From assembly GCA_017535925.1 (NCBI GenBank), contig JAFXTD010000062.1:1-64000 (forward strand): a stretch of DNA of 64,000 bases. Reading direction: 5' to 3'. The stretch is from Selenomonadaceae bacterium (GTDB lineage: Bacteria; Bacillota; Negativicutes; Selenomonadales; Selenomonadaceae). The notes under the pieces are model-generated. The model made no database searches and was not told the origin of the DNA. It was given only the letters and a program-made list of their open reading frames with translations. The first letter of the stretch is position 1; each line of letters opens with the position of its first letter. The translations under genes were made by a program, and so were the position numbers. Shown here one piece after another: positions 202-10,095 of this stretch.

Positions 202-1485
202 CTAAAAAATTTTTTCTCGCTCGAAAGAAATTGTCGTCGCCAAATTTTTCGACAGCCGCGAAAAAATTCTATCCTTGACGCCGTCGGATTCTTCTTCTGT
301 CGCCTCCTGTAAGATGACCAAAAATATATTTCCGTTCTTCGATATGCAATCGCTCCGCCGCAACGAATGAATCAAAATTTCTTTGAACTCCGCCGCAAAA
401 TTTTCGTCGGGCAACGTGAATTGCATGAGCGTCAAACCTTTTTTGTAGTTGTCCGCCATGCGCACAAGCATCCGATAAATTTTTTTGAAGTCTTCGAACT
501 CAACGAAATACGCGCCTGCCTCAATGTTCCGTTCGGCAAGTATCAGTTGCATTTGAGATATTCCCGACGATAAAATTTTTTCCGAGCGGTTGTGTTTGCC
601 GAAGAATGAAATTCCGTGCTTGCCGTGATGTTTGACTTCATAAAGAGCCGCGTCAGCTTTCTTGTACAACGTCTGAAAATCTTTTCCCTCATCGGGAACA
701 AAGACTGCACCGACACTCACGCCCAACGGAATGTTCATATCCGCGCCGAATAATTTTTTCGCGTAAACGACGATTTGGCTGTTCAGAAAAGAAGTTTTGT
801 ATCGCAAAATTTTTTCGTCATAAACATTTTCCAAAAATGCCGTGAATTCGTCACCGCCCATGCGCCCGATTAAATCCTCCTTGCGAATTATGCTTCTTAT
901 CAGCTCGGAAAATTTTATCAAAATTTTGTCGCCCGCCGCGTGTCCGTAAATATCGTTGACGAGTTTAAAACTGTCCAAGTCAATCATCAGCAACGCGCCC
1001 GATGAAATTTTGAGACGTTCGCCGATTTCTCTTTGCGAAGCCGATTTATTCAGCAACTTCGTAAGCGGATCAGTCGAGGCGGCAACTTTGAGCCCGTGAA
1101 TTTTGTCCAGATTATCGATTATGTTTCCGACGCGCCGAATCAAAACATCGGGACGGACGGGCTTGCGAATATAATCTGCCGCACCGACTTCGAAGCCTTT
1201 TATTTCGCTTTCGTCGTCTTCATTCGCCGACATGAAAATTATCGGCACGGGCTCCGAACTCTGCTCTTGTAAAATCCTGTGCAATTCGTAGCCGCTCATC
1301 TCCGGCATCATTAAATCCGACAAAACCAAATCGGGTTGTTCAATTTCAAAAAGTTCTATCGCCTCTGCGCCGCTCGTTGCCGTCACGATTTCATATTTTT
1401 GCGACAAGATTCGCCTGACAAGCATTAACATCATTTCTTCGTCGTCGACAACCAAAATTTTTTTCAACTGCCCGTCTCCAACCAT
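202..1485 (-). CDS. Response regulator with GGDEF diguanylate cyclase domain
   Basis: Cytoplasmic regulator of 427 residues expected to make cyclic di-GMP when phosphorylated. A receiver domain spans about residues 8-125, with the acidic pair D14-D15, phospho-acceptor D57 in LVLSDLMMP and K108. A GGDEF domain follows (about 138-300) with an intact GGDEF at 210-214 and an inhibitory-site RxxD (R201-D204) five residues upstream, so product inhibition is likely. The C-terminal ~110 residues resemble a second, degenerate GGDEF fold: the position of the motif reads NGNIF. The start overlaps the 3' end of the upstream hybrid kinase by 22 bases, with GAGGA nine bases before the ATG, so the two genes are translationally coupled and probably form one phosphorelay. 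No EAL domain is present. Confidence 0.92.
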   Translation of the reverse strand: MVGDGQLKKILVVDDEEMMLMLVRRILSQKYEIVTATSGAEAIELFEIEQPDLVLSDLMMPEMSGYELHRILQEQSSEPVPIIFMSANEDDESEIKGFEVGAADYIRKPVRPDVLIRRVGNIIDNLDKIHGLKVAASTDPLTKLLNKSASQREIGERLKISSGALLMIDLDSFKLVNDIYGHAAGDKILIKFSELIRSIIRKEDLIGRMGGDEFTAFLENVYDEKILRYKTSFLNSQIVVYAKKLFGADMNIPLGVSVGAVFVPDEGKDFQTLYKKADAALYEVKHHGKHGISFFGKHNRSEKILSSGISQMQLILAERNIEAGAYFVEFEDFKKIYRMLVRMADNYKKGLTLMQFTLPDENFAAEFKEILIHSLRRSDCISKNGNIFLVILQEATEEESDGVKDRIFSRLSKNLATTISFEREKIF

Positions 1486-4400
1486 TTTGCAATTTCCTCG
1501 CGAACTTTTTTGTAATATGCCATTAACGCCGCGTGATTCGATTGAATTTCTTCCGTCGAATTGTTTTTCGCAGCCATTTCCAAGTTTTTTGCCGCCTCAC
1601 TCAAATTTTCCGCACCGATTGAAAGAGAAGTCGACTTCAAAGCGTGAACCAATATCTGATAGCCTTTCCAATCGCCCGAATCAAATTTTTCTTGAAGCTT
1701 ATCAGCTTTCTTGCCGTCAGCGAAGGTCGTCAGCATTTGTTCGAAGAAACTCTTGCTGTCCATGCAATATTTCAAGCCGACTTCCAAATTTATATCGGGA
1801 CAAGCCGCCGAAAATTTTTTACACTCCGCGTCGCTGAAAGTGTCAGTGTCAACAGCTTCCTCGACTTGAGCAATTTCCTCGACCTCTTGAATTTTTTCGG
1901 GTTCGGGAATTTTTTTTGTCTCCTCCTCGAATTTTATAAGCTCGGCGGGCAAATGCCTTTCCAACATTTCTTCCAGCTCGGAAACTTCAATCGGCTTGCT
2001 CAAATAATCGTCGAAGCCCTCGCGCAAATAAAATTCTCTCATGCCGGCTATTGCGCTTGCCGTCAACATTATCACCTTCGTTTTGTCGCTCAAAAGTTTT
2101 TCACGGCGCATTTTTTTCAGTGTCTCGATACCGTTCATAACCGGCATCATGTTATCCAAAAATATTATGTGGTAAAAATTTTTCTTGAGAAGTTCGATTC
2201 CTTGTTGCCCGCTTTCGGCGAGGTCGGGCACGATTTTATTGCGCTTGAGCAAACCTGTTACAACTTTTAAATTCATGTCGTTATCGTCGATTGCCAAAAC
2301 TCTTGCGCCTTCCGCCGTCAAATATTTTTTCACGCCGGTTTTTTCAAGCCGATTCATCTTTTGTTCGTCGTAGTCACCTATAGGGGTCTTATCAATGATT
2401 CTTTGTGTCAGCTTAAATGAAAACGTCGAGCCTTTGCCGTATTCGCTTTCCACTTCCAATTTGCTGCCCATCATGTCCAATAATTTTTGCACAATCGATA
2501 TTCCGAGCCCCGTGCCTTCAATGTTGCGATTTTTTTCCTCTTCCAATCGCCGGAACGACATGAATAAATTTTCAATGTCCTCTGCGCGAATTCCTATGCC
2601 GGTATCGGAAACTTTCACTTGTAAATTCAGCGTGTCAGTGTCGAGTTCCGCTCCGCTTATCGACAATGTCACCGAGCCTTCATGAGTGTATTTGACCGCG
2701 TTGGTTAAAATGTTCGTGATTACTTGCCGCAACCGCACATCGTCTCCGTACAAACTCTTCGGCAAAGTCGAATCTATTTCCGTTTTGAATTCCAAGCCTT
2801 TTTTCTTTGCACGCTCCGCCGTCATGTTTACCAAGTCGTCTATCAAATGAATTGTTTCGTAGCGGACGGACATTATTTCCATTTTGCCGTCTTCGATTTT
2901 GCTGAAGTCGAGAATTGAATTTATCAGCGAAAGAAGAGTTTTGCCCGCGCTCTGAATATTTGCCGCATAATCCAAAACTTCATCGCTCTTGCTTTCGCGC
3001 AGAATCATTTCGTTCATGCCGAGCACCGCATTTATCGGCGTGCGGATTTCGTGAGACATTTGCGCCAAAAATTGTGATTTCGCTTTGCTCGCAGCCAATG
3101 CCGTTTCCGAAGCAACTTTTAATTGACTGTTCACAGAATCTTGCCAACGCAACAATCGCTTTATCAAAACATGAACGATAACGATACTGATTCCGAGCAA
3201 TACAACGAACATTACGCCCAAAAAAATAATGTTGCCGTAAATATTCCACCAACCGTTTGCCACAACGACCGTAAAATTAGACGTAATATTTTTTTTCGTC
3301 GTGCACGCCACAAGTTTTCCCGTGTAGTCGCGCAGAGTTTTAACCGTTTCATTTTCATAAACACCGGAGTATTCCGTGCCGAAAATATCCGTCATGCGGT
3401 TTCGTGACAACTGATAAACGGCATTAGGATGATTGATAATTATTCCGTTCTTGTCTACGAGAAAAGCGTAGCTGTCTTTGCTGTAGCTCTTGCCCAAAAC
3501 TTGAATCAAGCGGTCGATATAAAAATCTATTGCGAAGATACCTATAAATTCATTTTTCTCACTGAAAACCAATTGTGACATGGTGATACAATAAAGCCCG
3601 GTCTGCGCGTCGTAGTAAGGCGACGAAATGCTGAATCCCGACACCGAACTTTGCGTTTCAATGTACCATGGTCGCTTATCTACATGCCAATTCGGATCGG
3701 TCGACTCCCAACCGTTATTCATAATGACGTTGTGTTCCTTGTAAGGGTTGGCAAGATAGCAAACGGAAATTTCGGGATAGTGTTTGGCGAGGTCGTCGAG
3801 AAATTTTACGGCTTTCGGATAATCGTTCATCAATTCGGGATGCTCTTTCAAAAGATTGGCGAACATGCTCAAAATTGCTCGTTGATGTTCTATCCAGTTG
3901 GAAAGTTGGTGTTCGTAAGTGTCTGCTTCGCGATTCATTTTCGTATCGCCCAAGTTCGTTGTCGTGTTGAAACATATTGAAAACGCCAAAGACATTGCCA
4001 CGATTAAAACGGCAATGACACCGATTCGGGCGTAACGACTGACCTTTGAAAGTTCTTCGTCTTGGAAATTTTTATCGTCGGGTAAAATTTTTTTGTCACT
4101 TGAAACTATCGTGGAAAACGAAAAAAGATTTTCCAACATGTCTGAAAGTTTCAAAGCCGATTCGCGAACTTGCGCCGCACATTCTGCAGGAGGAGCTCCG
4201 CTTTCAACAGTTTTTGTGCTCGATAAATCCAAAATATTTCTCAACGGGTCTCTCAATTCGCGTGAAAGTCGCGATAAAAATTCTTCTTTGACACGCAATG
4301 CCTTTTCCGCAAGTAAACCGTTTTTCATTGCGTTCAGATAGAAAAAAATTATCGCAAACATCATCAGCAAACTTAACAGCGTCGTAAATATCATTTGCAG

Positions 4401-5255
4401 GTAACTGGTTTTATAGAACGCCCAATTATCGACGCTCAATATCATGTACCAGCCGTTGTTTGTCGTGGAACTGAAAATCGTATGCTCGTCGCCGTCGATT
4501 TGCGCTATAAAACTTTCGTTGTTGTTCGATTGAATTATACGATTTAAAACCACTTCATAATCGGGCAACTTCTCTGAAAGTTTTTCGCCGACCAATTTCA
4601 TATCCGTGTAGCCGATTATCATTCCGCTTTTCGTCACGATTAAAGCTTTGCGGTCGCTCGTCGAACCCATTTTCCGAATCAAATATTGAATCTCCGAAAG
4701 ATTGAAATCTGTCGCAACCACCGTTTTGTTGTCCGTCAACATTTTCGATATTGTGTAGCACATCATGCCGGTCATTGCGTCGATATACGGCTCTGTTATG
4801 TAAACTTTGTCGGGATTTTCTGCCGCGCCTCTGTACCAAAGCCGCTCCGTCACGTGATATTCCGGCGGCATGTCAAAATCGGGAATTATCGACCAATCGT
4901 TGTTCGCCACGTAGACATTGAAACATACTCCGTCCGTTAAATTTTTCTGCTCGCGTTTTCGATTTCGAAAAAAAGTTTCAAGGTCTTTGTGCGGCATATT
5001 GGCTTTCAACAGTTGCTCCGTTTCCATTGCCAATTTCATTGTCGTGTTTTCAGCCGTCTGCAGTGTATCTTGAAAATCCGAACGAATTATTTCCAACTGC
5101 GCTTGCCCTATCTCTTCGGCTTGGTTCGAGGTCATTTGAAAGATAAGCCGCACGTTCATGAATATCACAAGCAAAAAAATTATCGTGATTGCCGTGATTA
5201 TCATGAAGTCGGAGCGTTTGCCGTCCTTTAATATCTGCCAATCTTTCAAGTTCAT
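1464..5255 (-). CDS. Hybrid sensor histidine kinase with two tandem Cache sensor modules, REC and HPt
   Basis: Inner-membrane phosphorelay kinase of 1263 residues. Order: TM about 16-38, extracytoplasmic double-Cache-like sensor to about 285, TM about 288-310, and a cytoplasmic DHp-like helix whose H-box reads SRELRDPL (Arg332 where His is expected). Then TM about 412-432, a second Cache-like sensor with a WHVDKRPWY motif, TM about 675-697, and an intact HisKA (MSHEIRTP, His735). After this come HATPase_c (N-box NILTNAVKY, G-box GTGLG), a receiver domain (phospho-Asp about 1034 in FLDNMMPVMNG) and a C-terminal HPt with His1204 in VHALKS. The first half therefore looks like a duplicated kinase input module that has lost its His and its ATPase domain. 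The partner is the overlapping REC-GGDEF gene. Ligand unknown; Cache domains commonly bind small metabolites such as amino acids or organic acids. Confidence 0.93.
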   Translation of the reverse strand: MNLKDWQILKDGKRSDFMIITAITIIFLLVIFMNVRLIFQMTSNQAEEIGQAQLEIIRSDFQDTLQTAENTTMKLAMETEQLLKANMPHKDLETFFRNRKREQKNLTDGVCFNVYVANNDWSIIPDFDMPPEYHVTERLWYRGAAENPDKVYITEPYIDAMTGMMCYTISKMLTDNKTVVATDFNLSEIQYLIRKMGSTSDRKALIVTKSGMIIGYTDMKLVGEKLSEKLPDYEVVLNRIIQSNNNESFIAQIDGDEHTIFSSTTNNGWYMILSVDNWAFYKTSYLQMIFTTLLSLLMMFAIIFFYLNAMKNGLLAEKALRVKEEFLSRLSRELRDPLRNILDLSSTKTVESGAPPAECAAQVRESALKLSDMLENLFSFSTIVSSDKKILPDDKNFQDEELSKVSRYARIGVIAVLIVAMSLAFSICFNTTTNLGDTKMNREADTYEHQLSNWIEHQRAILSMFANLLKEHPELMNDYPKAVKFLDDLAKHYPEISVCYLANPYKEHNVIMNNGWESTDPNWHVDKRPWYIETQSSVSGFSISSPYYDAQTGLYCITMSQLVFSEKNEFIGIFAIDFYIDRLIQVLGKSYSKDSYAFLVDKNGIIINHPNAVYQLSRNRMTDIFGTEYSGVYENETVKTLRDYTGKLVACTTKKNITSNFTVVVANGWWNIYGNIIFLGVMFVVLLGISIVIVHVLIKRLLRWQDSVNSQLKVASETALAASKAKSQFLAQMSHEIRTPINAVLGMNEMILRESKSDEVLDYAANIQSAGKTLLSLINSILDFSKIEDGKMEIMSVRYETIHLIDDLVNMTAERAKKKGLEFKTEIDSTLPKSLYGDDVRLRQVITNILTNAVKYTHEGSVTLSISGAELDTDTLNLQVKVSDTGIGIRAEDIENLFMSFRRLEEEKNRNIEGTGLGISIVQKLLDMMGSKLEVESEYGKGSTFSFKLTQRIIDKTPIGDYDEQKMNRLEKTGVKKYLTAEGARVLAIDDNDMNLKVVTGLLKRNKIVPDLAESGQQGIELLKKNFYHIIFLDNMMPVMNGIETLKKMRREKLLSDKTKVIMLTASAIAGMREFYLREGFDDYLSKPIEVSELEEMLERHLPAELIKFEEETKKIPEPEKIQEVEEIAQVEEAVDTDTFSDAECKKFSAACPDINLEVGLKYCMDSKSFFEQMLTTFADGKKADKLQEKFDSGDWKGYQILVHALKSTSLSIGAENLSEAAKNLEMAAKNNSTEEIQSNHAALMAYYKKVREEIAKWLETGS

Positions 5256-5446: not shown

Positions 5447-5464
5447 TTTAAACAGGTGATTTCC

Positions 5465-6211
5465 ATGAATATAGCCATCGTCGACGACCAATCGGGCGAT
5501 TTACTTTCCGCCGAATCTTTTTTGAAAGATTATCTCATAAGAAATTTCCCTGAAGTTGCTCAATCCGTTAAGATTAATATTTTCAACAATCCTGAAGAAT
5601 TTTTGAGCAACTTTGAGTCTGACCACTTCGATTTACTTATTCTCGATATTTTTATGAGACCTCTCAACGGAATTCAAGTTGCGCAAGTCGTTCGTGAAAG
5701 AGATTCAGACGTTTCGATAATTTTTTTGACCAACAGCGAAGATTTTATCCTCGAAGGTTACAAAGTCTTTGCCGTCGGATATTTTCTCAAGCCGCTCACC
5801 GAAAACGTCGAACAATTCACCAAAACTTTTTACTACATCTTCCCGCGCCTCGTTGAGAATCGAAGAAAGCTGTCTGTTCGCGTCGATGGCAACGATATTC
5901 TCGTTCCCTACAAAAGCATTCGCTACATTGACATTGACGAACGGCATCATCTGCGTATTCATCTGCCGAACAAAGAATTTCCCGTGAATATGACTTACGC
6001 CGAGTGCGTCGACGTTTTGAAGAAAGATTCTCGTTTCGTCGAATGCTATCATCGAATAATTGTCAACATGGATTTTATCAAATCAATGGACAGCGAGGAT
6101 TTTATTTTAACCGACGGAACAAAAATTCCAATCAGCAAGCGCAAAAGTAAGGAATCAAAGTTAAAATACATGTCTCATTTGATAAATCTCAACTCTGCCA
6201 ATACATGGTGA
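5465..6211 (+). CDS. LytTR-family response regulator (AgrA/LytR-like)
   Basis: Two-domain transcription factor of 248 residues. The receiver domain (about 1-125) has D7-D8, phospho-Asp61 in LLILDIF and a K in LKPL. The LytTR DNA-binding domain (about 145-240) includes the typical RYIDIDERHH and ECYHRIIVNMDFIKSM segments. The ATG at 5465 is preferred over the GTG at 5456 because AGG at 5453-5455 then lies at a normal distance. The gene runs head-on into the AgrC-like kinase and their 3' ends overlap by 23 bases. The adjacency suggests a cognate pair of the quorum-sensing or bacteriocin type, but no pheromone precursor gene was recognised nearby. Confidence 0.9.
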   Translation: MNIAIVDDQSGDLLSAESFLKDYLIRNFPEVAQSVKINIFNNPEEFLSNFESDHFDLLILDIFMRPLNGIQVAQVVRERDSDVSIIFLTNSEDFILEGYKVFAVGYFLKPLTENVEQFTKTFYYIFPRLVENRRKLSVRVDGNDILVPYKSIRYIDIDERHHLRIHLPNKEFPVNMTYAECVDVLKKDSRFVECYHRIIVNMDFIKSMDSEDFILTDGTKIPISKRKSKESKLKYMSHLINLNSANTW

Positions 6212-7487
6212 CTTTAAAAATCCCATCCTCCTGTGAAAAATCTGTATATGCGTTGTATTTTTCGGAAAAAATTTTAATCGACGCCATACCGAGCCCGTGA
6301 CCTTCGGTTGAAGTTTGCGGATAATTTTTTTCGTCAAAGCTTATCTGTTCGTCATAAATATTTGAAATTTCGAGAACACATTGACCGTTTACGCTTTGAA
6401 TAACGATTGAAATCTTTTTTCTGCTGGTCGGTTGCCGACTGCTTGCATTTATCGCGTTTTCGAGCAGATTCGAAATTAAAATGGCGAAATCTCTTTCATC
6501 AATCGAAATTCTGTTCGGCAAATTAATTTTGTGCTTGATTTTAATGCCGAGTTTTTCGGCGCGACCGATATAAACACTCAACGCGGCGTTTATCAACGGT
6601 TGCGAGCAAAAATTTTTGACTGCGGTCTTGCCGAGAAATTTTTCTTCGTTGCTGATATAATTTTTTGCGTCATCGATTTTGCCTTCCTGCAACATCATGT
6701 AAATCAATCGGAAGTTATGCCTCAAATCATGCCGCATGACCAAAACTTGTTCGCGACTCTCCTGCATAAGCCGATTATATTCGCTTAAAGCGGTTAATTG
6801 CTCCTTCATCAGCCGAACATTTTGTCGAGTACGCTTTTCTTCCCGTAATTGTTCGGTCGTCAGCAAAATATGACGATAGAATAAGAAAAAAACAATCGGC
6901 AAATAAAATCTGGACAACCTTTCTTGCCAAGAGTGAATCACAGGCTCCTGCGACCAGAGCAACAACACGGGAATAATCATTGCAAAAGGAAAAAAGGCTG
7001 CAAAGTTTCCGTAGTCCTCGAAAAATTTGTTTGGCGGCAACAAATTTCGGAAAAAACGTTTTGCAAAGGGCAAGCTGAAGATAAAAAACAACAGATACAA
7101 TACTGCATGAGCAAAAATAATTTCGCGTTCGCTCTCAAAAAATGATACGACAATTATCGCGGAAAAATTATGCAATATGGTGCTCCAAATGTCTGCCATA
7201 CCAAAAACAAAAACGTGCCGAACGAAATTTCTGCGAACCGCCGCCACAAAAACTATCATATAAGGAATCCAACCCAATATCAAAATGAATTTATAAACCG
7301 GCGCATGAATTCCGTAATTCGAGAAGATAAAATAATTCCCGACGCTGCTTAAAATTCCCCAAACGAAAAATCCGCCCGACAAATTTTTTCGTTCGGCATC
7401 AGTCATACCGTTACTGAAAGCGAAATACATCAAGCAGAAATAAGAAAGCAAAATCACTGAAGATAAGACAGCCAAACACGTAAACAT
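6189..7487 (-). CDS. AgrC/ComD-like sensor histidine kinase (GHKL type)
   Basis: Membrane sensor kinase of about 432 residues. The N-terminal ~220 residues hold six or seven hydrophobic helices, as in peptide-sensing HPK10 kinases. These are followed by a coiled linker and the H-box VMRHDLRHNF. A GHKL ATPase domain follows, with N-box NLLENAINAS and G-box GHGLGMASIK. The start at 7487 (MFTCLAV) is chosen because GGAG precedes it by seven bases; an upstream in-frame ATG at 7523 has no close ribosome-binding site. The gene is convergent with, and overlaps by 23 bases, the LytTR regulator, its likely partner. The stimulus is unknown. Confidence 0.88.
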   Translation of the reverse strand: MFTCLAVLSSVILLSYFCLMYFAFSNGMTDAERKNLSGGFFVWGILSSVGNYFIFSNYGIHAPVYKFILILGWIPYMIVFVAAVRRNFVRHVFVFGMADIWSTILHNFSAIIVVSFFESEREIIFAHAVLYLLFFIFSLPFAKRFFRNLLPPNKFFEDYGNFAAFFPFAMIIPVLLLWSQEPVIHSWQERLSRFYLPIVFFLFYRHILLTTEQLREEKRTRQNVRLMKEQLTALSEYNRLMQESREQVLVMRHDLRHNFRLIYMMLQEGKIDDAKNYISNEEKFLGKTAVKNFCSQPLINAALSVYIGRAEKLGIKIKHKINLPNRISIDERDFAILISNLLENAINASSRQPTSRKKISIVIQSVNGQCVLEISNIYDEQISFDEKNYPQTSTEGHGLGMASIKIFSEKYNAYTDFSQEDGIFKVTMYWQS

Positions 7488-7702
7488 TTCACTACTCCGA
7501 AAAATTTTTTTCGCGCCAATCATATCATAAAGAAATTCTTTCCTCTATATCAAAGAAGATTTTGCCGTGATACTTTTCGCATTGGTGACACATGAAAATT
7601 TATAAAAAATTTAAATACAGTTAAAGGCGGCGTAAAAATATCATGCGATTAAAATCACGAACGGTTATTTGAATTTGTTTCATAAAATTGGGAGGAATAA
7701 AA

Positions 7703-8281
7703 ATGGCAATCAGTTTGAAAAAGGGGCAGAAAGTGGACCTCACGAAGACGAATCCCGGCTTGAGCAAAATTTTAATCGGACTCGGCTGGGATACCAACAG
7801 GTACGACGGCGGCTCCGATTTCGACTTGGACAGCTCGGTTTTCTTGCTTGGTGCCGATTCAAAAGTCACCGGCAACGGCGATTTTATCTTCTTCAACAAC
7901 CTCAAACACTCTTCCGGCAGCGTCGAACATCTCGGCGACAATTTGACGGGCGCGGGCGAAGGCGACGACGAAGAAATTAAAATCGACTTGAGCAAAGTCC
8001 CTGCCGACATTGAGAAAATAGCTTTCACCGTCACGATTTACGAGGCGGAAGAGCGCAAACAAAATTTCGGTCAGGTTGAGAACGCTTTTATCCGTGTTTT
8101 CGACGAGCAGAATAATAAAGAACTCATCCGCTACGATTTGGACGAAGATTTTTCGATTGAGACTGCCGTAATTGTCGGCGAGTTGTATCGCAACAAAGGC
8201 GAATGGAAATTCAACGCAATCGGCTCCGGCTTTGAAGGCGGCTTGGCGGCTCTGGGCAATCACTTCGGCATTTCGATATAG
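7703..8281 (+). CDS. terD: TerD-family stress/tellurite-resistance protein
   Basis: A 192-residue protein of the TerD/CABP family, small acidic cytoplasmic proteins that bind calcium and are linked to tellurite resistance and general stress. The family hallmark features are all visible: start [13 protein letters not shown], the segment [12 protein letters not shown] followed by [10 protein letters not shown], the [16 protein letters not shown] block and the C-terminal GEWKFNAIG. Length equals the family norm. GGAGG at 7691-7695 sits eight bases before the ATG at 7703; a TTG at 7688 is in frame but lies upstream of that site. It stands alone: no terA, terB, terC or other ter genes are adjacent. 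This suggests a single-copy general stress protein rather than a full ter operon. Confidence 0.94.
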
Positions 8282-8871: not shown

Positions 8872-9996
8872 TTATTTTTTAACGAGTTTGCTGCCCTTGA
8901 TTCGATAAATATCACCGTTGACGTTGAAAGTGGAAGTGTCGAAATTTTTTAAGGTAATGGCATTGGAAGTCGAGCCGACCTTGAAAGAAATTTCGTCTTT
9001 CGAACGATTATACGACGCCGAAAAAGCTCCCGTGATTTTCAACATGTCGTCATCCTCGAAGCCGAAGATAATATCTTTGCCGTCGCCCTTTGCATAAACA
9101 AAAACATTGTCGTCGTCGCCGCCCCAGAGCGAATCATTGCCCTTGCCGCCAATCAAGGTGTCGTTACCGTCGCCGCCGTAAAGTTTATCGTTGCCTGCGC
9201 CTCCGACAAGAGAATCTTTGCCTTTGCCGCCGTAAATCGTATCAGCTTTCGAGCCGCCGCTGATTGTATTGGCCGAAGAATTGCCGGTGATTTTAATTGC
9301 CTTTGTTCGCGAGGAGGCATCGGCAATTTTTATTCCCGATTCGAGAGTCACGGAGGCTTTTGAAGAATTTGTCAGCGTCAAATTTTTTGACTTGCTGTCG
9401 CTTGAAGTTTCGGTCACTTTTCCGCCGACGATTGACGAAAAACTTTTGCCGGAAGAATCAATCAGGCTCAACGATTTTCCTTTTGCATTTTTGACGGTAA
9501 GAGAACCCGTTCCGACAGTGAGAACGACCTCCGAGCCTTTCAACGTCGCTTTGGAAATTTTTCCGCCCGAAATTTTGATTTTGTCGCCCGCCGCGTAGTC
9601 GCTGATAACATCGTTGCCGCCGTTTTTCGAGTAAATGAAAACGTCGTTGCCTTTACCGCCCATCAAAGTATCGTCGCCTCTGCCGCCGTCAATCCAATCT
9701 CTTCCGGAGCCGCCGATTATTTTGTTTGCAAGTCGGTTGCCTTCAATTTCGAGGTTGTGAGTGACTGCCGAAGCATCAATCGTCACCAAAGCGCGTCCGA
9801 AATCTTCCGCTTCAAATTCATCGTCTCTGTAACCGCTCAAAATTTTGGCTTTTTTGCCGGCGTCGCTGATTTTAACATATTTGCGGTTGTAGCGATCGTC
9901 GTCGTCAAAATCATCGTCGTAATCGTCACGGTCGTCATCGTCGTCAAAATCGTCATCATCACGGTCATAGCGGTCATCGTCATCATAATCTTTCAT
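8872..9996 (-). CDS. RTX calcium-binding repeat protein with Asp-rich head
   Basis: A 374-residue protein, probably exported. Residues 1-40 are an extreme Asp-rich stretch (runs such as DDDDRYDRDDDDFDDDDD). Then come a hinge (TIDASAVTHNLEIEGN, RLANKIIGG), a short RTX block (GGRGDDTLMGGKGND), and a module ending TVKNAKGKSLSLIDSSG. A second hinge (IADASSRTKAIKITGNSSAN) leads to a longer RTX block (GGAGNDKLYGGDGND and repeats), capped by a C-terminal beta region. RTX nonapeptides bind Ca2+ and fold outside the cell. There is no N-terminal signal peptide, as expected for type I secretion; no ABC exporter is encoded in the window. The second ATG (9996) is chosen: GGGAGG is nine bases before it but touches the first ATG (10005). 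The hinge and module recur in both RTX proteins at the right end of the window. Confidence 0.9.
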   Translation of the reverse strand: MKDYDDDDRYDRDDDDFDDDDDRDDYDDDFDDDDRYNRKYVKISDAGKKAKILSGYRDDEFEAEDFGRALVTIDASAVTHNLEIEGNRLANKIIGGSGRDWIDGGRGDDTLMGGKGNDVFIYSKNGGNDVISDYAAGDKIKISGGKISKATLKGSEVVLTVGTGSLTVKNAKGKSLSLIDSSGKSFSSIVGGKVTETSSDSKSKNLTLTNSSKASVTLESGIKIADASSRTKAIKITGNSSANTISGGSKADTIYGGKGKDSLVGGAGNDKLYGGDGNDTLIGGKGNDSLWGGDDDNVFVYAKGDGKDIIFGFEDDDMLKITGAFSASYNRSKDEISFKVGSTSNAITLKNFDTSTFNVNGDIYRIKGSKLVKK

Positions 9997-10095
9997 AACA
10001 ATCATCCTCCCAATCGAAAAAATTTTTTACCGCATAAAATATTCGCACAAGATTTTCAAGCTGACTTTAACAGAATCTAAACGTTTTATAAATTT

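Follow-up and report, generated by a model that had tools for sequence, protein, structure and literature searches.

A putatively silent DHp domain maintained within a dual-sensor hybrid histidine kinase of Selenomonadaceae

Introduction

What use could a histidine kinase make of an additional dimerization and histidine phosphotransfer (DHp) domain stripped of its catalytic residues? This question is raised by a gene located at positions 1464..5255, on the minus strand, of a 64,000-nucleotide stretch from a Selenomonadaceae bacterium (positions 1 to 64,000 of contig JAFXTD010000062.1, assembly GCA_017535925.1; hereafter the window). The gene's 1263 codons form one uninterrupted reading frame, which encodes a dual-dCache hybrid histidine kinase of 1263 residues, the first DHp domain of which (DHp1) is predicted to be silent. 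Comparison with its homologues suggests that, as a genus diverged, a working kinase retained a silent DHp in its chain, the catalytic site drifting and the rest of the bundle staying fixed. Pseudo-histidine kinases are known, to our knowledge, as separate proteins; no published description of a silent DHp within the chain was found in the open-licence literature, which is weak evidence of absence.

Domain organization of the kinase

The chain is ordered TM1-dCache-TM2-DHp-TM3-dCache-TM4-DHp-ATPase-receiver-Hpt, where TM denotes a transmembrane span, and all of its features lie on the minus strand. Pfam analysis recovered dCache_1 twice, HisKA twice and HATPase_c once, together with Response_reg and Hpt. 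Four membrane spans were predicted by hydropathy: TM1 at residues 17-35 (5151..5207), TM2 at residues 288-306 (4338..4394), TM3 at residues 411-429 (3969..4025) and TM4 at residues 676-694 (3174..3230). The preliminary description of this DNA, which proposed two predicted periplasmic sensors and four spans in one chain, is thereby confirmed by Pfam and hydropathy. The same domain plan is common to 68 homologues from related genomes. With the window copy, these formed the 69-row alignment used below, which retained 68 of the 69 other matches at E<1e-50 and left out a 237-residue contig-end fragment (G047). Four spans were predicted in 59/69 rows, some rows being cut by contig ends.

DHp1 occupies residues 314-386 (4098..4316). 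At its phosphoacceptor position stands Arg332 (codon CGC, 4260..4262), which the sequence and a profile alignment place opposite His735 of the second DHp domain (DHp2). A Pfam scan of the kinase found no ATPase domain between DHp1 and TM3, and the intervening linker (residues 387-410; 4026..4097) is of variable length in the family alignment. Sequence and Pfam thus agree with the earlier claim that the first DHp has neither a phosphoacceptor nor an ATPase domain of its own.

DHp1 is related to HisKA domains

The preliminary description set a HisKA origin of this segment against an origin as a non-kinase linker. The window copy alone matches the HisKA model weakly, reaching 17.2 bits (E 0.0055) in a scan of residues 1-400 and 21.3 bits (E 0.00027) with a 75-residue piece, both below the curated cut-off of 26.9 bits. 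The identity of DHp1 is secure because of the matches obtained at the family level. A HisKA match at E<=0.01 was found in 67 of the 68 family members, the best reaching 1.5e-10. Alignment of a DHp1 profile (68 rows, the divergent copy L146 left out) with a DHp2 profile (41 of 65 rows) using hhalign gave a probability of 97.6 and an E value of 2.9e-12 over 70 columns, with R332 opposite H735. The similarity between the two halves of the protein, which the preliminary description had called for checking, therefore holds for their DHp parts. The DHp1 profile also matched solved DHp domains, with GacS (7z8n, 4.4e-9) and the RetS-GacS complex entry 7n0e (1.1e-6) at the head, both entries being so identified in the account of PMC12148439. 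Further matches included ERS1, DivL (4q20, 7.2e-5), CpxA and others, and the RetS chains were matched weakly (0.01-0.035). A non-kinase linker identity for residues 314-386 is thus rejected by the HisKA, profile-profile and solved-structure matches.

In the AlphaFold model, a helix spanning residues 282-345 runs from TM2 through the H-box and is followed by a turn and a second helix (residues 356-386), with a block-mean predicted local distance difference test (pLDDT) score of about 54-64 over residues 311-380. The same hairpin appears in a longer, 810-residue model at a confidence of 48-57; the fold comparison made with that model covered the two sensors only. A two-helix hairpin is therefore present in the model, at low confidence. 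With neither the phosphoacceptor His nor the Thr/Asn of a functional HisKA, DHp1 is best described as a HisKA-derived pseudo-DHp.

The catalytic site of DHp1 drifts and its core is kept

Analysis of position 332 across the 69 rows revealed Lys in 25, His in 18, Arg in 12, Gly in 5, Ser in 3, Asn in 2, Thr in 2, Gln in 1 and Asp in 1. Gly was found in copies from a second genus, and the single Asp comes from L146 (31% identity), which aligns poorly at DHp1. The position ranks tenth most variable among the 70 of DHp1, and its states, classed as His, Lys, Arg or other, require at least 25 changes on a 67-row tree from which L146 and two short split-gene copies were left out and to which one copy from the second genus was added. 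The account of HisKA in PMC3510030 describes the roles of the His, Glu/Asp and Thr/Asn residues, the Thr/Asn four residues past the His being needed for phosphatase activity. At this phosphatase position, residue 336, the window kinase has Asp, and Thr or Asn occurs in 9/69 rows. The His, Glu/Asp and Thr/Asn residues are combined in DHp1 in only 2/69 rows, both copies of one split gene in two genomes. DHp2 of the same chains, taken as a control, has His at position 735, within an H-E-T or H-D-T combination, in 67/67 rows with letters. Since the catalytic residues of DHp1 vary or are lost, neither kinase-acceptor nor phosphatase chemistry is under constraint. Arg332 is one among several drifted states of the site. 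The survey of homologues for the same Arg, suggested in the preliminary description, thus gave no support to a special role for this residue, and a function for Arg332 was rejected because position 332 varies across the family.

The core of DHp1 is near invariant, with S331, I341, L370 and L377 found in 69/69 rows and L334 and P337 in 68/69. The ratio of non-synonymous to synonymous substitution rates (dN/dS) in the closest pair, the window kinase and L081, is 0.06 for DHp1, 0.09 for DHp2 and 0.10 for TM1 with sensor 1. For DHp1 it is <=0.16 in the 13 other close pairs listed, of 26 found, bar one tandem pair with a value of 0.29, in which values elsewhere in the gene are relaxed too. Between residue 307, just past TM2, and position 332, the distance is constant at 25 residues (69/69 rows); between residue 381, close to where the second DHp1 helix ends, and TM3, it ranges from 26 to 31 residues across the family. 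DHp1 is fixed on its input side, toward TM2, and loose on its output side, toward TM3. Lost catalytic residues, a near-invariant core and low dN/dS together argue that DHp1 is a maintained, catalytically silent DHp; the conserved helices speak for an integral regulatory element and against debris.

An Asp also replaces the H-box His in L147, a single-sensor paralogue (residues 478-489 of an 869-residue frame), so that dead H-boxes may occur in other kinases of the window's genus as well.

The second module and its likely output

DHp2, of the active HisKA type, covers residues 725-790 (2886..3083) and includes the phosphoacceptor His735. It is followed by HATPase_c (residues 837-950; 2406..2747), with the N, G1 and G2 motifs retained, the receiver (residues 986-1098; 1962..2300), with Asp1034, and Hpt (residues 1185-1247; 1515..1703), with His1204, all assigned by Pfam and the family alignment. 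Beside His735, the catalytic residues are conserved in every row with letters, namely N848 in 65/65, D884 in 65/65, D1034 in 63/63 and H1204 in 60/60. Residues 700-1263 thus have the DHp His, N/G1/G2 motifs, receiver Asp and Hpt His expected of an active hybrid histidine kinase. Two to four Hpt stretches were detected in five longer family members that were scanned. Tandem pairs of dual-sensor kinases were observed in L124 (6785-13899) and L129 (1-8772), one member of the latter having 1638 residues and four Hpt stretches.

Downstream of the kinase gene, with an overlap of 22 bases, lies a gene on the minus strand (202..1485) for a 427-residue protein composed of a receiver and a GGDEF domain with an intact GGDEF motif, likely the cognate output. 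Of the 60 homologues for which 1 kb or more of sequence is available downstream, 44 are followed within 1300 bases, on the same strand, by a receiver-GGDEF homologue, which overlaps the kinase gene in 30 of the 44. From this neighbour we strongly infer an output through cyclic diguanosine monophosphate (c-di-GMP), and control of c-di-GMP by two signals is the likely function of the chain.

Two sensors probably of the amino-acid type

Sensor 1 (dCache_1, residues 42-273; 4437..5132) carries the complete dCache_1AA motif, with Y133, R138, W140, Y141, Y157 and D183. This Y-R-W-Y-Y-D motif is described at positions 121, 126, 128, 129, 144 and 173 of PctA (PMC10104139, PMC11245519). In the family, the sensor 1 motif reads YRWYYD in 55/69 rows and FRWYYD in 9. 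Sensor 2 (dCache_1, residues ~433-672; 3240..3959) matches five of the six positions (W523, R528, W530, Y531, Y547 and D577). Its first position is Trp in 47 and Phe in 18 of the 69 rows, and the positions after the first are all intact in 62/69. Sequence and fold searches group the sensors with amino-acid chemoreceptor domains such as those of PctA, CtaA and Mlp24. These share the fold and the six-residue pocket motif with sensor 1; they are single chemoreceptor sensors, whereas the present kinase holds two such domains, the second being off at one position.

As a control, 18 sensors of other kinases and receptors were searched for the motif, and 7 were caught by the pattern and aligned. All six letters were found in L161 and L163 and five in L159, the last position being unaligned; the other four differ at one place or more. 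The amino-acid motif is thus informative yet common. Both sensors are probably of the amino-acid type, and an amino-acid input to the kinase is suggested with moderate strength.

Distribution and origin of the chain

An initial survey covered 99 related genomes, 78 of which matched the N-terminal half in some way, many of them only with generic dCache kinases. With a profile of residues 1-810 at E<=1e-90, 56 of the 380 genomes of the class matched, and these spanning matches were confined to 2 of its 102 genera, namely the window's genus (54/66 genomes, counting G152, a fragment that spans residues 2-207) and another genus in that family (2/3). Across the order (189 genomes, E<=0.001), those among the matches listed that lie outside the two genera cover only the C-terminal part. 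The named records of relatives are metagenome bins of Selenomonadaceae or Selenomonadales, many with rumen or gut sample names. By its distribution, the kinase appears to belong to a lineage-restricted family, the arrangement not being peculiar to one gene. Among the NCBIfam matches listed, none names it, the best 25 of 133 all falling below their cut-offs. Models of the TorS, BarA and ArcB type match residues 709-1260 (DHp2, ATPase domain, receiver and Hpt), again below curated cut-offs, and none of the matches listed covers the first sensor-DHp module. A role in defence was rejected, since the PADLOC matches fall on the ATPase domain only.

In two genomes (L085 and L086), an in-frame TAG inside sensor 2 splits the kinase gene into an open reading frame of 540 residues, with sensor 1 and DHp1, and a second one bearing the kinase. 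These copies possibly represent one lineage, a sequencing error being an alternative.

In the sensor tree, 18 N-terminal sensors form one clade (99/100) and 18 C-terminal sensors another (100/99). As all N-terminal sensors fall in one clade and all C-terminal ones in another, the dual-sensor chain probably arose once. The placement of both clades relative to the sensors of single-sensor kinases has a support of 36/63, with long branches. The fusion of two kinase genes with trimming of the first, raised in the preliminary description, is a possible origin, as is internal duplication followed by trimming; the sensor tree favours neither.

A proposed mechanism and its alternatives

Several known systems offer partial parallels. 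RetS is reportedly a protein in its own right that carries an ATPase-like domain. In Pseudomonas aeruginosa, RetS controls the active kinase GacS through a kinase-like DHp, by DHp-DHp packing, as described in PMC12148439. DHp1 recalls this system through its profile matches to GacS and, weakly, to RetS; unlike RetS, it lies in cis, between two membrane passes, without an ATPase domain, and its pairing is putative. DivL of Caulobacter likewise has a HisKA-type DHp without a phosphorylatable His that is maintained for regulation; according to PMC4211667, its Tyr is conserved in nearly all homologues, it has an ATPase domain and it reads DivK~P. DHp1, unlike DivL, shows no conservation at residue 332 and is not followed by an ATPase domain. 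A further precedent is ChrS, which still acts when catalytically dead and for which heterodimers were reported in two-hybrid assays (PMC9491836). By analogy, DHp1 would work as pseudokinase modulators such as DivL or RetS do. In TodS-like kinases, too, each chain holds two sensory and two DHp modules, there cytoplasmic and with complete kinase cores.

The best explanation, in which we place about as much belief as doubt, is a two-input hybrid kinase in which DHp1 acts as a sensor-driven, non-catalytic bundle tuning DHp2. DHp1 would form a four-helix-bundle module driven by sensor 1, the ligand of which would alter DHp1 packing. Through this packing, DHp1 would set how the two chains are arranged or paired and thereby tune autophosphorylation by the DHp2-ATPase unit, which would respond to sensor 2 as well. 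Phosphate would then pass from His735 to Asp1034, to His1204 and to the receiver-GGDEF partner, changing c-di-GMP. The favoured contact is a dimer clamp formed by homotypic DHp1-DHp1' packing, which accommodates the fixed sensor-to-bundle stretch, the conserved, chemistry-free bundle and the loose tether to the second sensor. That the dead module modulates the active one, as the preliminary description suggested, is favoured by selection (the DHp1 dN/dS of 0.06) and by the conserved core, the modulation itself being a proposal drawn from them. Several points weigh against this explanation. The Glu/Asp at position 333, a kinase residue in active HisKA, is retained in 66/69 rows; the family rows include near copies, so that their counts are not independent; and DHp1 is modelled at a confidence of only ~48-64. 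The 26-31 range of the DHp1-TM3 stretch disfavours a lever that would act rigidly from DHp1, by way of TM3, on sensor 2. Moreover, the adjacent receiver-GGDEF gene is missing in 16/60 homologues, and the ligands are read from motifs alone, from which sensor 2 departs at the first position.

In the main rival contact, DHp1 would be a cis-acting RetS that packs on DHp2, whether of its own chain or of its partner's, and the resulting hetero four-helix bundle would block or permit autophosphorylation under the control of sensor 1; in the extreme form, a single chain would be a covalent pseudo-dimer. We hold this reading to be possible though rather doubtful. It has a precedent in RetS, which swaps the homodimeric DHp-DHp interface of GacS for a heterodimeric one and thereby blocks autophosphorylation, as described in PMC12148439. 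Such a role would require neither the His nor an ATPase domain in DHp1, the DHp1 profile finds its best matches among solved structures in GacS, the RetS-GacS entry, ERS1 and DivL, and the loose DHp1-TM3 stretch would permit re-pairing. The cis antagonist also accommodates the fixed stretch, the conserved bundle and the loose tether. However, the rank of GacS and RetS may merely reflect the nearest DHp subclass, and DHp2 keeps the consensus of single-sensor kinases (14 paralogues of the same genus) at 25/32 hydrophobic and 25/39 other positions, and therefore gives no sign of a core refitted to DHp1. Were such an antagonist joined to an amino-acid sensor, one chain might compute the difference of two extracellular signals before any phosphate moves, a suggestion to be taken a shade more tentatively still. 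Should DHp1 instead be a mere spacer, its hairpin would return the chain to the membrane for the second sensor with no signalling role; the TM2-to-TM3 link must turn in any case, the catalytic site is free to drift and the linker is of variable length. This is unlikely, given that several polar positions of DHp1 are near invariant along with its core, that its dN/dS in the closest pair is as low as that of DHp2, and that the constant 25-residue spacing from TM2 should have drifted more in a spacer. The loss of the His and of the ATPase domain, together with one split copy that an in-frame TAG interrupts in two genomes, could also mark what is left of two kinase genes that fused recently, a remnant without function that is about to be lost. 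We consider this very improbable, recent decay being rejected by purifying selection on DHp1 and by the spread of the plan across two genera.

The family offers a compact system for asking whether DHp bundles can integrate two transmembrane signals without phosphotransfer, and its natural variation separates what a DHp needs for its structure from what it needs for catalysis. Should the readings of input and output hold, amino-acid sensing would be linked to c-di-GMP in an uncultured rumen group.

Neighbouring genes

In two of the 16 homologues without an adjacent receiver-GGDEF gene, a solute-binding protein of the SBP_bac_3 family is encoded directly downstream (L093, 8850-9650; L109, 8692-9522); members of this family often bind polar amino acids. 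In the window, the kinase gene is adjoined at 5456-7523 by a divergent receiver-LytTR gene and a facing GHKL-type kinase gene, an AgrA/AgrC-like pair, and homologues of both lie near the kinase gene in several relatives. Beyond them, a TerD-domain protein (E 6e-87) is encoded on the plus strand at 7688-8281, and an Asp-rich protein with RTX calcium-binding repeats at 8872-10005.

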